Assembly (NCBI GenBank): GCA_029881995.1
Contig: JAOULO010000023.1
Location: 1 to 50,327, forward strand
Reading direction: 5' to 3'
Length of the DNA stretch: 50,327 nt
Origin: Gammaproteobacteria bacterium
GTDB lineage: Bacteria; Pseudomonadota; Gammaproteobacteria; UBA6429; Thiohalophilaceae
Part shown: in pieces, positions 12,718 to 18,230 of the stretch
Position numbering within the stretch: the stretch's first letter is position 1
Layout of the letters: every line of letters starts with the position of its first letter
Made by a program: the position numbers and the translations under genes
Notes under the pieces: model-generated
The model's input: only the letters and a program-made list of their open reading frames with translations
What the model was told of the DNA's origin: nothing
The model's database searches: none

Positions 12718-14013
12718 ATGCAGTTAATTATAAGATTTGCTGTTACTTCAATATTTCTTTTTCTGGCTTTGTCCGGCTCTTCCATTGCTGCCACGTTTGG
12801 AACATACGACCCACGCTCTCTGGCAATGGGAGGAACGGGTGTATCTCAGGCCAATATTGATCATGCCGCCTATTACAACCCAGCCTTGTTATCCATTTCT
12901 CAGCAGGATGATGATTTCAGTCTGTTGATCCCAACGATTGGGGCGAGAATCTATGACCCGGAAAACTTTCTCGAAGCGCTTGAAGACCATCAGGATGGTA
13001 AATATGAAACTGCAATGCAGGATGCGGTGAATCAGTTTGAGAATGCAGTGACACCAGTTGATGCTCAGGCGAGTGCCCTGTTGATAGTCGCGAATGCTCA
13101 GCGACTTAGAGACAGTTTTGTGGCTTTGTCAGATAAGGAGCTGGATTTTGAGATCCATGCAGGAATTGGGTTGGCCATTCCCAGTAAGTCCCTTGGTTTT
13201 GCATTTATTGCCAGTGGCCGTGCCATGAGCGGGGTTGTAGTTAATATATCGGAAGCAGATAAGGTTTTAATGCAGGATTATATTAAGGCAGCGCAGGATT
13301 TTGCTGATAACGCCAGTTTTGATGACCCACACCCGGCTAATGTAGTTTGTGGAACCAGTTTTTGTGATGCCAAGTCACAACTAACATCTCGGGCTAGAAT
13401 TCAGGGGGCGGTAATTGTTGAGTCTGGGATATCACTATCCCATGAATTTTCCTCACTAGGTGATTTGTCTATTGGCATTACGCCAAAATCTGTCAATGTC
13501 AGTACCTATGATTATCAAGATATCACGGTTGAAAATTCAGAAATTGATAAAGAAAAAGGTAAGCAAGAGTATGATGATACTAATCTTGATATCGGGTTTG
13601 CCAAAAGGCTTAATGGTAGCTGGAAGATTGGTGGAGTTATAAAAAATGCTATCAAGAAAGAATATAAAACTGTGCTTGGTAATACGATAACTCTGGAACC
13701 AGCGGTCAGGGCAGGTGTATCTCATCATACCAACTGGACAACTGTCGCACTGGATATTGATCTGACAGAAAATAAACGTCTCGGATTAACTGGAGAAAAA
13801 ACCCGCTATGCCGGATTAGGAATGGAGTTTGATTTGTCAATTATTCAGCTAAGGATTGGTGGCCGACATAATCTTAGTGCAAATGATGGACGCCAGGCAA
13901 ATTTACTATCTGCAGGTTTAGGTGTTTATCTGGCTGGGTTTCATGTAGACCTGGGGGTGGCAAAAAATGATGATGAACTGGCCGCAGCCTTACAGCTAGG
14001 CTTGCAATTTTAA
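12718..14013 (+). CDS. TraF-like outer-membrane-type protein (paralogue 1 of 3)
   Basis: A 431-residue exported protein: signal peptide (FAVTSIFLFLALSGSSIAA), then GTYDPRSLAMGGTGVSQANI and AYYNPALLS, the N-terminal signature of the 'conjugal transfer protein TraF' family (Pfam TraF_2 by recollection). The body is rich in alternating beta-like segments and the protein ends in an aromatic residue (LQLGLQF), as outer-membrane barrels do. Despite the family name there are no conjugation genes here. It is much closer to paralogue 3 than to paralogue 2, for example in the shared tail VAKNDDELAAALQLG. It is transcribed towards paralogue 2 and ends 2 bp from its stop. Confidence 0.82.
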   Translation: MQLIIRFAVTSIFLFLALSGSSIAATFGTYDPRSLAMGGTGVSQANIDHAAYYNPALLSISQQDDDFSLLIPTIGARIYDPENFLEALEDHQDGKYETAMQDAVNQFENAVTPVDAQASALLIVANAQRLRDSFVALSDKELDFEIHAGIGLAIPSKSLGFAFIASGRAMSGVVVNISEADKVLMQDYIKAAQDFADNASFDDPHPANVVCGTSFCDAKSQLTSRARIQGAVIVESGISLSHEFSSLGDLSIGITPKSVNVSTYDYQDITVENSEIDKEKGKQEYDDTNLDIGFAKRLNGSWKIGGVIKNAIKKEYKTVLGNTITLEPAVRAGVSHHTNWTTVALDIDLTENKRLGLTGEKTRYAGLGMEFDLSIIQLRIGGRHNLSANDGRQANLLSAGLGVYLAGFHVDLGVAKNDDELAAALQLGLQF

Positions 14014-14015
14014 GC

Positions 14016-15290
14016 TTAGAACTGGAAGCCGAACTGTAGTGATGCAGCTTTTTCTGCTTCACTTTCTGCATAGGCCAGGTCGATGTGGATTCCAAAGGGA
14101 GAGAACCCCAGGCCGACTGATTTAACCGTTTTGTCTTTATCAGTCACTGTGGCCAGTCGATTTTCTTTGATACCTAAGCGGACCTGCAAAGTGTCAATCA
14201 GGTTGATTTCCAGGCCAGCACCCACATACTGAGTTTTTTCATCAAGACCGAGAGGTTCATTTTGGGTAACATCCACATCAATAGCGAATGTTGTCATGAA
14301 GGTGTGATGCGATATACCGGCTCGAACCTGAGGCTTTAACACCATCTCATTACCCAGGGCGGTTGTATAGGAACGTTGAACAAGGTTTTTACCTACCACA
14401 CCAAATTTAATCCCGCCACCAAGATGGGCCACAAGACCAACATCAACATTAGCATCGGAATATTCTATTTTTCCCAAATCTTCATCAATATCGGCTTCCT
14501 GCATACCAATCGCATAATCATAGGTGGTGAAGTCCACTGTCTTGGGGGTAATACCCATGGCTAAATTTACACCACCAAGATTAAACATGGTTCCAATCGA
14601 AATACCGGTGTCCTGAATCAGGGCGCCTCGTACATTGATGGTTGAGGTTAATCGACCAGAGATGTCACGTAGTTGACCACCGCTATACAGGTTGGTGTCA
14701 CTGACATTTGGGAGATTACCACTTGCAACACTTGAGAGTTCTGTTGCGTAAGCATTGATTAAAGCACTATCTTCAGTGGTGTAGTTCAGCTCAACACCGG
14801 CCAGGGCACGAAAATTGGTAGCAATGCTGACTCCAAAATCTGGGCTTGGAACACCAATCACAACCCCCAGATTGGCTTCAAGAATTACAGGTTTATTCGA
14901 AAGACTCTTAATACCAGTATCAAGATTAGTGAGGGCGTCAGATGCGGCATTGGCATTTGCAACACTCGGTGTAGTATTAAAGTCGTTAATCGCGGTTGTC
15001 ATTTTGGCTTCATGGTTAGCAGCCTGATATGCATCCAGTGCATCTTCCAGGTTTTCAGGGTCAGCAATACGTGCTCCAAGGACTGGGGCTTCCAGGCTGA
15101 AATCTTCATCCTGTCGGGTCAGTGCCAACAATGCGGGATTGTAATAACTTGCATTTGCACTGGTGCCTGAGCTGACACCGGTACCACCCATGGCCAGAGA
15201 GCGTGGATCGAAAGTGCCAAATGGCAGTGCATTGGCCACTGGTTGATATATCAATAAAGTTAGGATTGTAAAATAAATTCTTCGCAGCAT
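14016..15290 (-). CDS. TraF-like outer-membrane-type protein (paralogue 2 of 3)
   Basis: A 424-residue member of the same family: signal peptide (IYFTILTLLIYQPVANA), then FGTFDPRSLAMGGTGVSSG and ASYYNPALLAL, with the late GVGKNLVQRSY-like segments and a C-terminal FGFQF. It is the most diverged of the three paralogues and lacks the conserved DKELDFEIHAG wording of the others, having VILEANLGVVIG instead. It is transcribed in the same direction as paralogue 3, 61 bp downstream of it, with a strong hairpin between them. Outer-membrane location and a transport or structural role are inferences. Confidence 0.82.
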   Translation of the reverse strand: MLRRIYFTILTLLIYQPVANALPFGTFDPRSLAMGGTGVSSGTSANASYYNPALLALTRQDEDFSLEAPVLGARIADPENLEDALDAYQAANHEAKMTTAINDFNTTPSVANANAASDALTNLDTGIKSLSNKPVILEANLGVVIGVPSPDFGVSIATNFRALAGVELNYTTEDSALINAYATELSSVASGNLPNVSDTNLYSGGQLRDISGRLTSTINVRGALIQDTGISIGTMFNLGGVNLAMGITPKTVDFTTYDYAIGMQEADIDEDLGKIEYSDANVDVGLVAHLGGGIKFGVVGKNLVQRSYTTALGNEMVLKPQVRAGISHHTFMTTFAIDVDVTQNEPLGLDEKTQYVGAGLEINLIDTLQVRLGIKENRLATVTDKDKTVKSVGLGFSPFGIHIDLAYAESEAEKAASLQFGFQF

Positions 15291-15351: not shown

Positions 15352-16677
15352 TTAAAACTGAAAACCAAGTTGCAGGGCAGCTGCCAGTTCGTCATCATTT
15401 TTGGCCACTCCCAGGTCGGCATGGAAGCCAAAGATATATAGGCCAATACCTGCGGATAGCATGTCAGCCTCGCGATCATCTTCCGCACTCATGTTATGAC
15501 GTGCACCAACACGCAGCTGAATCAGGGAAAGGTCAAACTCCATCCCAAGGGCGGCATACTGGGTTTTTTCCTTGGTCAGACCTGTGCGTTCATTTTCAGT
15601 CAGATCAACATCAAGGGCGATTGTCGTCCAGTTGGTGTGATGTGAAATACCAGCACGGGCAGTGGGTTCAAGAACAATCGTATTGCCAAGAACGGTTTTG
15701 TATTCTTTTTTGACGGCATTTTTAACCACCATCCCGAACTTCCAACCTTCAGTGAGGCGTTTGGCAATACCGATATCAATATTGGAATCTTCATATTCAA
15801 GCTCGCCTTTTTCTTTATCGAGATCGGCATTTTCAATATCGATTTTAAAGTCATAGGTTGTGACCTGGGTGGTTTTTGGTGTGATACCAATAGACCAGTT
15901 ATCCAGTGACTCAAATTCATGGGCCATAGATAGACCGCCTTCGAGAACCATAATACCTTGTAAGCGGGCATTAGAGGTTAATTTGCCTTTGGGGTCCTTT
16001 AGTGAACCATCAGGATTTAGAACTGGATCAGTTTTCGCTAACTCAACTGGGCCACAAGGATCTGCCGGGTTATCTGCAAGTAATGCAGCACAATTTAAAG
16101 CATCAACATATTTATTCAGTAAGAGCTGATCCTCTGGAGTAACATTCAGAACCGCCCCACCCATTAGACGACCACTTCCCGTTATAGCAAAGCCCAGTCC
16201 TTTGCTTGGTATGGCTACGCCAACACCCGCATGAATTTCAAAGTCTAATTCCTTATCCGACATATTAATCAGGGAATCTACTAGCTGCTTTGATGATGCA
16301 GCAGCAGCTTTAGCTGCAGCTACTTTTTCAGTTGGTGTAACAGCATTATTGTATGAATCAACTGAGTTATTAAACGTGGTTTCGTATTTACCATCCTGAT
16401 ATTTTTCAACAGCCTCGATCAAATCTTTCGGGTCATAGGCTCGTATACCGATGGTTGGGAGCAACAAGCTGAAATCATCATCATCTTGCGCTACTGATAG
16501 CAGGGCAGGGTTGTAATAGGCCGCATGGTCAATATTGGCCTGGGAGACACCGGTTCCACCCATGGCAAGAGAGCGGGGGTCATAAGTACCAAAGGTTGCA
16601 GCCTGGATTACACTGACGGGTAACATACCGAGTAAAATGCCAGCCAGCAGGGGGGAAATTCGAAATAGCTTGTTCAC
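15352..16677 (-). CDS. TraF-like outer-membrane-type protein (paralogue 3 of 3)
   Basis: A 441-residue protein with a signal peptide (ISPLLAGILLGMLPVSVIQAA) and the family start GTYDPRSLAMGGTGVSQAN. It parallels paralogue 1 along its whole length (NIDHAAYYNPALLS, DKELDFEIHAGVG, KKEYKTVLGNTI, ISHHTNWTT, VAKNDDELAAALQLG) and ends FGFQF. Near residues 195-225 it has an insert rich in Pro, Asp and Cys that paralogue 1 replaces with different Cys-containing text (VVCGTSFCD). Start is GTG 16677 with GGAG eight bases upstream. It is first of a two-gene minus-strand unit with paralogue 2. Confidence 0.83.
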   Translation of the reverse strand: MNKLFRISPLLAGILLGMLPVSVIQAATFGTYDPRSLAMGGTGVSQANIDHAAYYNPALLSVAQDDDDFSLLLPTIGIRAYDPKDLIEAVEKYQDGKYETTFNNSVDSYNNAVTPTEKVAAAKAAAASSKQLVDSLINMSDKELDFEIHAGVGVAIPSKGLGFAITGSGRLMGGAVLNVTPEDQLLLNKYVDALNCAALLADNPADPCGPVELAKTDPVLNPDGSLKDPKGKLTSNARLQGIMVLEGGLSMAHEFESLDNWSIGITPKTTQVTTYDFKIDIENADLDKEKGELEYEDSNIDIGIAKRLTEGWKFGMVVKNAVKKEYKTVLGNTIVLEPTARAGISHHTNWTTIALDVDLTENERTGLTKEKTQYAALGMEFDLSLIQLRVGARHNMSAEDDREADMLSAGIGLYIFGFHADLGVAKNDDELAAALQLGFQF

Positions 16678-16937
16678 AACGTCAACTCCATAACCAACAA
16701 GTAATTAATCTGTAAGTCTGCTTCGGCCTGACAGGGGGAGTCTTTAACTAATTATGTGTGAACAAAGGCAAATTTCAGGAGGGTTAATATTTGACAAAAA
16801 TGCAAAATACTTTGAAATCAACTGGATATACGGTCTAAAATAATTTGATTAATTATTGGCGATAGTTTGACGGTATTCCGATGGATATTCATATCGCTTA
16901 CAAATCAATCTGATCGATAAAATGAAGGTTTATTGAT
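16678..16937. other. Divergent intergenic region between TraF-like paralogue 3 and pcnB
   Basis: A/T-rich non-coding DNA serving two outward-facing genes. On the plus strand a TTGACA (16791-16796) and a TTGACG (16867-16872) could be -35 boxes for pcnB, but neither has a good -10 at the right distance. GAAGG at 16924-16928 is the likely ribosome-binding site for the AUU-initiated pcnB. No RNA gene was seen. Confidence 0.5.
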
Positions 16938-18230
16938 ATTAATCATATAGTTCCCGTTATTCCCCGTCCTGAACACTCGATTTCGAGATCCAATATCAGT
17001 GAGAGTGCACTGAAGGTGCTCTATCGCCTTAAAAAAGCCGGTTATGAGTCCTATCTGGTGGGTGGAGGTGTAAGAGACCTGCTATTGGGCGGTAAACCAA
17101 AAGATTTTGATATCGCGACTGATGCCTTGCCAGAGCAGATTAAATCCCTGTTTGGTAATAGTCGAATTATCGGGCGTCGATTCAAGCTGGTTCATGTGCG
17201 TTTTGGTAGAGAAATTATTGAAGTTGCGACCTTTCGTTCTCACCATGAACAGGCTGAAACCGATGAACAGGGCATGATGGAGGACGGTTTAATTATCCGG
17301 GACAATGTTTATGGGACCCTTGAAGAGGATGCCTTCCGCCGGGACTTCACCGTTAATGCATTGTATTACAATATCGCAGATTTCTCAGTCATCGATTACA
17401 CACAGGGTATGGTGGATCTAAAAAATCGAACCCTGAGAATGATCGGCAAAACAGAAGTTCGCTTACAGGAAGACCCTGTTCGGATGTTACGCGCCATTCG
17501 ATTTGCTGCAAAGCTGGGGTTTCATCTTGAAGACAGTTTGAAAAATGAAATTCAGACTCAGGGTGAAAGACTTGATATGGTACCTGCAGCCAGGCTATTT
17601 GATGAAATACTGAAATTATTCATGTCCGGACATGCGGCACAAACTTTCCAGCTGTTAATGGAATTTAATCTTTTCCCTCATTTATTTCTACAGACCCATG
17701 ATTGTATGAAGGGTAACAATGAGTATGTGCAAGAATTTGTTCTACAGGGATTGGTAAACACAGATAAACGAATCGCTGAAGAAAAACCCGTTACACCTGC
17801 CTTTTTATTTGCTGTTTTACTGTGGCCTGCTGTTGCCAGACATAAAGCATCCTTACTGGACTCAGGACTGAGTCCTCTTCAATCTTTGCTGGTGGCTGGT
17901 AGAGATATTATTAGTGAACAAATCCCTCAGGTGGCAATTCCAAAACGATTTCGACAGATGATGATCGACATATGGGTGTTCCAGGCAAGGCTGGAACAGA
18001 GAAGGGGTAAGCGGCCGGTCAGGCTGGTTACCCACCCCAGGTTCAGGGCGGCCTATGACTTTATGCTATTACGCAATCAGGCTGGTGAGAACATACAGGA
18101 GTTATGCGACTGGTGGACCCATTTTCAGGAAGCCAATGAGGGTGAGAGGCATCTCATGTGTAAAGCACAAGGAGGAAAAAAGAAGCACCGGAGAACGCGT
18201 CCAGGTAAAAATACCTCACCCGATACTTAA
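16938..18230 (+). CDS. pcnB: Poly(A) polymerase I, apparent AUU start codon
   Basis: PcnB adds 3' poly(A) tails that promote RNA decay. The nucleotidyltransferase core is clear: YLVGGGVRDLLLGGKPKDFD (GG and DxD), EEDAFRRDFTVNALYY, the RNA-binding REDPVRMLRAIRFAAKLG-type helix and a basic C-terminal tail (GGKKKHRRTRPGK). The family N terminus IPRPEHSISRSNIS is encoded upstream of GTG 17016, but between the in-frame TGA (16923-16925) and that GTG there is no ATG, GTG or TTG. ATT 16938, nine bases after GAAGG, is the best start (430 aa). E. coli pcnB is known to start at AUU. folK begins 1 bp after its stop. Confidence 0.88.
   Translation: MNHIVPVIPRPEHSISRSNISESALKVLYRLKKAGYESYLVGGGVRDLLLGGKPKDFDIATDALPEQIKSLFGNSRIIGRRFKLVHVRFGREIIEVATFRSHHEQAETDEQGMMEDGLIIRDNVYGTLEEDAFRRDFTVNALYYNIADFSVIDYTQGMVDLKNRTLRMIGKTEVRLQEDPVRMLRAIRFAAKLGFHLEDSLKNEIQTQGERLDMVPAARLFDEILKLFMSGHAAQTFQLLMEFNLFPHLFLQTHDCMKGNNEYVQEFVLQGLVNTDKRIAEEKPVTPAFLFAVLLWPAVARHKASLLDSGLSPLQSLLVAGRDIISEQIPQVAIPKRFRQMMIDIWVFQARLEQRRGKRPVRLVTHPRFRAAYDFMLLRNQAGENIQELCDWWTHFQEANEGERHLMCKAQGGKKKHRRTRPGKNTSPDT

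Follow-up and report, generated by a model that had tools for sequence, protein, structure and literature searches.

Poly(A) polymerase I (PAP I), the product of pcnB, is initiated at an AUU codon in Escherichia coli, where this codon and a poor ribosome-binding site keep the level of the enzyme low (Binns and Masters 2002, as cited in PMC9764084). The RefSeq annotation of E. coli strain N3 lets the pcnB coding sequence begin at ATT, and a preliminary description of the present locus had named E. coli pcnB as a case of AUU initiation. The E. coli AUU follows GAGGT with a spacing of five bases and stands 32 codons upstream of the PR motif of the protein. Where an AUU start of pcnB is mentioned in the accessible parts of the literature, it is that of E. 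coli (PMC12779154, PMC9764084, PMC13009471, PMC1780047, PMC4227106, PMC11742677, PMC4245954, PMC5601948, PMC5869508, PMC9848016, PMC9410913). For organisms other than E. coli, no pcnB start at AUU or AUC was found in those parts of the open-access literature; earlier reports elsewhere are possible.

Two other systems are comparable. The infC gene, encoding IF3, has a near-cognate AUU or AUC start and, in E. coli, is part of an autoregulatory loop, and IF3 represses near-cognate starts and also the GTC start of Streptomyces sigR (PMC5472188). However, infC combines a strong GGAGG with autocontrol by IF3 in E. coli, whereas pcnB would be a target only. The near-cognate start of sigR limits a potent protein, as that of pcnB would, but codon, gene and phylum are different, and the effect of IF3 is known there, whereas at the locus described here it is expected by analogy. 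E. coli pcnB is the same gene and has the same start codon as proposed below.

The start region of pcnB in the window

The window is the whole stretch of 50,327 nucleotides that was analyzed. In a profile search with the frame read from AGG 16926, its pcnB product was identified by TIGR01942 with 530.8 bits (cut-off 305.65), and the Pfam domains PolyA_pol, PolyA_pol_RNAbd and PolyA_pol_arg_C were all matched on 16938..18230; NF008634 scored 474, below its cut-off of 702. The first canonical codon in this frame is GTG 17016..17018. Including the stretch upstream of this codon raised the TIGR01942 score from 505.0 to 530.8. Position 1 of the profile corresponds to residue 11 of the frame from AGG 16926, 20 codons before the GTG, and the chains of the E. 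coli PAP I crystal structures (3aqk/3aql/3aqm) align from residue 9 of the same frame. Thus, the conserved N-terminal core PR.EH.ISR..ISE.ALK (16962..17015, plus strand), which is also aligned in relatives, precedes the GTG, in line with the earlier claim that the conserved N terminus is encoded upstream of it. Homology starting only at the GTG, which would have spoken against that claim, was not found, as both the relatives and the E. coli chains align further upstream.

Any possible start of pcnB is bounded upstream by the in-frame stop codon TGA at 16923..16925. The codons that follow are AGG TTT ATT (16932) GAT ATT (16938) AAT CAT ATA GTT CCC GTT ATT CCC CGT and so on to AAG GTG (17016). 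When sequence and translation were read through, no ATG, GTG or TTG was found in frame between this TGA and GTG 17016, exactly as previously described. An ORF finder limited to these three codons begins at 17016, 26 codons downstream of ATT 16938, and so truncates the protein by the 26 residues that had been predicted. The proposed AUU start at 16938..16940 would give a protein of 430 amino acids, encoded by 16938..18230 on the plus strand including the stop codon TAA (18228-18230). The Shine-Dalgarno sequence GAAGG (16924..16928) lies nine bases before it, the spacing given in the preliminary description, and is weak (-2.6 kcal/mol by the rule of the scoring script). The tail pattern of 16S rRNA was not found in the assembly of the window (0/1) or in those of relatives (0/6), and the anti-Shine-Dalgarno sequence was therefore assumed.

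A sigma-70-like promoter match for pcnB at 16812..16841 (plus strand; 10/12 matches) is weak evidence, as three sites were found in the region where 1.5 were expected. RNA structure at the start was not unusual, folding no better than shuffled sequences (z 1.0 to 1.3). An out-of-frame ORF of four codons, ATG to TGA (16922..16936, plus strand), ends beside the ATT. Frameshifting or coupled re-initiation from this ORF was considered and rejected, since its ATG is missing in both genomes of the same genus, G001 and G002. Mini-ORFs ending near the start of pcnB occur elsewhere, i.e., in G001 (42 bases) and at L183 and L191 (15 bases), but no clear enrichment was seen (9/25 sites, a number reached by 17 of 200 shuffles), and the one in the window is probably there by chance.

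Directly upstream of pcnB, the window contains three adjacent paralogues matching the Pfam family TraF_2 (PF13729), at 12718-14013 on the plus strand and at 14016-15290 and 15352-16677 on the minus strand, which share the N-terminal motif FGT(Y/F)DPRSLAMGGTGVS. In E. coli, dksA-gluQRS is found at this place.

Start codons within the genus and the family

At the position of 16938, ATT-AAY is present in all three genomes of the genus that were compared (the window, G001 and G002), preceded in each by AAGG. AAGG and ATT are nine bases apart in the window and eight in both relatives, so the upstream reading frame is not kept relative to the Shine-Dalgarno sequence; consistently, the pattern AAGG-N8-ATTAAY is absent from the window. 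The pcnB gene of G001 also lacks any canonical start codon. In G002, an in-frame ATG and an in-frame TTG precede the ATT by 13 and 9 codons, respectively, the ATG with a match of only -1.5 kcal/mol and the TTG without a Shine-Dalgarno sequence; because of this ATG, G002 was counted in the ATG class.

These comparisons make ATT 16938 the best candidate, and it is, with a probability of about 0.87, the start codon of pcnB, as judged from the DNA sequences of the window and its relatives. Three other near-cognate codons, ATT 16932..16934, ATA 16947 and ATT 16959, are also in the pcnB frame, and initiation at one of them is improbable: the first, only three bases from GAAGG, reads ATC in both relatives, the second is ACA in both, and the third is GTT in G001. 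Translation from GTG 17016, producing a protein without the first 26 residues, is more improbable still. This codon is the first canonical one in frame, and GAGAG (17001-17005), ten bases before it, is a candidate weak Shine-Dalgarno sequence. However, a start there would lose the conserved core, which the relatives share with the crystallized E. coli chains, and the codon itself varies; it is an unlikely start since it is GTT in G002 of the same genus, and it is GTC in L009 and L011 and GTA in L008 and L022. A sequencing or assembly error that created the upstream stop or destroyed a canonical start is hardly credible, even in an assembly of 132 contigs, as canonical starts are absent also in G001 and in genomes of 20 other families, some of them (G112, G258, G253 and G293) assembled into one to four contigs.

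Beyond the genus, the start codon of pcnB appears, from the sequences, to vary between ATT, TTG, GTG and ATG within the family of the window. Among its 34 usable genomes, nine have no canonical start, seven have only GTG or TTG, and 18 have an ATG. In genus g12, AAGGTAG(T/C)CTT-ATT-TCA is found in all four genomes, one of which (L010) has GTG codons further upstream as well, and in the four genomes of g15, AAGG precedes an ATT that lies nine codons upstream of the core. The nearest start candidates are TTG in g2, g3 and g9, GTG in g16, and ATG in g6, g7, g14 and others. With start states as assigned by us to the genera and g13 left open, the ATT state requires at least three changes on the family tree.

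As a positive control for the recognition of near-cognate starts, infC was inspected in the same family. It was found in 25 of 40 genomes, although not in the assembly of the window, and 23 loci were tried, of which 17 (among L117-L138) had a recognized anchor. ATC after GGAGG was present at 16 of these 17, and the remaining one has ATT/ATC after GAGGA. Thus, infC in this family appears to start at ATC, unlike the ATT of E. coli.

Candidate near-cognate starts of pcnB across the Gammaproteobacteria

A comparison of PcnB N termini and upstream codons across the class, proposed in the preliminary description, was carried out on 190 genomes, and near-cognate starts recur in it. The gene was found in 256 of 276 class genomes; 159 of the 256 were taken from the better matches listed, so that the sample leans to closer homologues. 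Together with the rest of the family of the window and two further genomes, this gave 194 gammaproteobacterial genomes. Four were dropped, three without an upstream stop (G019, G228 and G044) and one with a broken gene (G006), leaving 190 from 139 genera and 99 families. Codons were searched from the upstream stop to two before the PR motif.

No canonical start was present before the PR motif in 31 of the 190 pcnB genes (23 genera, 21 families), i.e., in 9/34 within the family of the window and in 22/156 outside it. In the stretch searched, a further 63 offer only GTG or TTG, and the remaining 96 contain at least one ATG. In 25 of the 31 (17 genera, 15 families), ATT (22 genes) or ATC (three genes) lies 5-10 codons upstream of PR and is preceded, at a distance of 5-11 bases, by a Shine-Dalgarno match; the codon after this proposed start specifies Asn or Ser in 20 of the 25. 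The other six are L203, with an ATT that has no Shine-Dalgarno sequence by the survey rule, L216 (G258) and L265, with an ATT 34 codons before PR, L223 and L267, where the start region is unclear, and L257. Since 16 of the 63 genomes with only GTG or TTG also carry ATT or ATC with a Shine-Dalgarno sequence in the zone from -10 to -5, the true number of near-cognate starts may be higher.

Several individual loci deserve mention. L257 (G168) has neither ATG, GTG or TTG nor a near ATT, and its start may be at CTG-AAT, seven codons upstream of the core. In L098 (G205) and L255 (G279), which have no canonical codon, pcnB apparently starts from ATC after AAGGA or GGGGA. A layout similar to the long one of E. 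coli is seen in L248 (G162) and L216, where an ATT with a Shine-Dalgarno match stands 31-34 codons ahead of the core. Two species of genus g81 differ at a shared site, which reads ATT in L106 and ATC in L099. In addition, 47 further named loci, mostly from Marinobacter, are counted as outside the 190, except for L042 and L043, which are identical to L002 and L003; one of them, L047, has no canonical start, and ATT and ATC are located nine and three bases, respectively, after its GGAG.

The neighboring gene folK served as a control, with a near-identical rule that covered the anchor and as many as 60 codons upstream of it. None of 87 class genomes lacked a canonical start in folK, with 12 that had no upstream stop in the stretch still counted and three of 90 giving no match; an earlier pass had given 0/54 distinct loci, and 53 further loci had given no anchor. 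The difference from pcnB (31/190) corresponds to a Fisher p-value of 5e-6. Under a tighter rule of 15 codons, a canonical codon was absent in 3/87 folK and 110/190 pcnB genes, which is not a fair comparison because many PcnB proteins have long N termini. An in-frame ATG was absent in 94/190 pcnB and 16/87 folK genes.

The proposed sites themselves were compared with 55 genomes in which the canonical codons, ATG among them, all lie more than 15 codons upstream. ATT in the zone from -10 to -5 was found in 23 of the 31 genes without a canonical start and in seven of these 55 (Fisher 1.3e-8). Sites with a Shine-Dalgarno sequence in the latter (5/55 for ATT and 4/55 for ATC) mark the chance level, and single sites can thus arise by chance. 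At the proposed starts, 22 of 25 codons are ATT, vs. 132 of 349 downstream Ile codons (binomial 3e-7), and with one gene per genus, 14 of 17 are (2e-4). As related genomes are not independent draws, all these p-values are to be taken as guides.

Origin and possible role of the proposed AUU start

The AUU of the window lies eight codons before PR, after AAGG with nine-base spacing, and thus not at the protein position of the E. coli AUU, 32 codons before PR. The N-terminal extension of the E. coli protein is therefore absent here, and the two sites are not homologous. Consequently, the trait probably recurs rather than descending from one site. Repeated origin is likelier than descent from one AUU start also because the proposed start codons change inside one family and because the class tree (119 columns, 191 rows) requires no fewer than 25 changes to account for its 32 positive rows, a rough figure. 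E. coli was a positive row in this tree by annotation; it has in-frame GTG/TTG codons and is excluded by the strict rule. The preliminary description had proposed a conserved regulatory start. The recurrence of near-cognate starts is borne out by the 31 of 190 genes, but the site is not conserved, given its different position in E. coli and the varying codon in the family, and a regulatory effect is proposed by analogy with E. coli.

In the proposed mechanism, pcnB mRNA would be translated from AUU 16938, positioned by GAAGG and read by the initiator tRNA as fMet, to yield a PAP I of 430 residues that begins just before the catalytic core. Since IF3 discriminates against AUU, the start would be weak and PAP I would be kept at a low level, as has been reported for E. 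coli. By this analogy, the AUU of the window is expected to be limiting for PAP I and sensitive to IF3, and a limiting role is considered reasonably likely. Across the Gammaproteobacteria, pcnB would have acquired AUU and AUC starts repeatedly and at positions that are not homologous, a pattern suggesting that selection favors weak initiation of this gene.

Alternatively, the AUU start may be without regulatory meaning, the start codons of a weakly expressed gene simply drifting to near-cognates. The turnover between ATT, TTG, GTG and ATG within one family is what drift would also give, and this explanation is a serious one, although rated below even odds. Against it stand the low level of PAP I that AUU and a poor ribosome-binding site maintain in E. 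coli (Binns and Masters, cited in PMC9764084) and the excess of pcnB over folK genes that lack an in-frame ATG, a bias that drift alone does not obviously explain.

A broader proposal, put forward tentatively and with some doubt, is that weak near-cognate initiation at AUU, AUC and perhaps CUG has evolved repeatedly in pcnB throughout the Gammaproteobacteria and ties the dose of poly(A) polymerase to IF3 activity. The fidelity of initiation would then set RNA polyadenylation and decay, and the N termini of many annotated PcnB proteins would be incorrect. Annotation limited to ATG, GTG and TTG would cut or misplace the N terminus of PcnB. The pcnB genes without a canonical start occur in 21 families, and most of them have AUU or AUC at a protein position other than that used in E. 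coli; comparing them offers a test of whether poly(A) polymerase is kept scarce by selection acting via the start codon and IF3.
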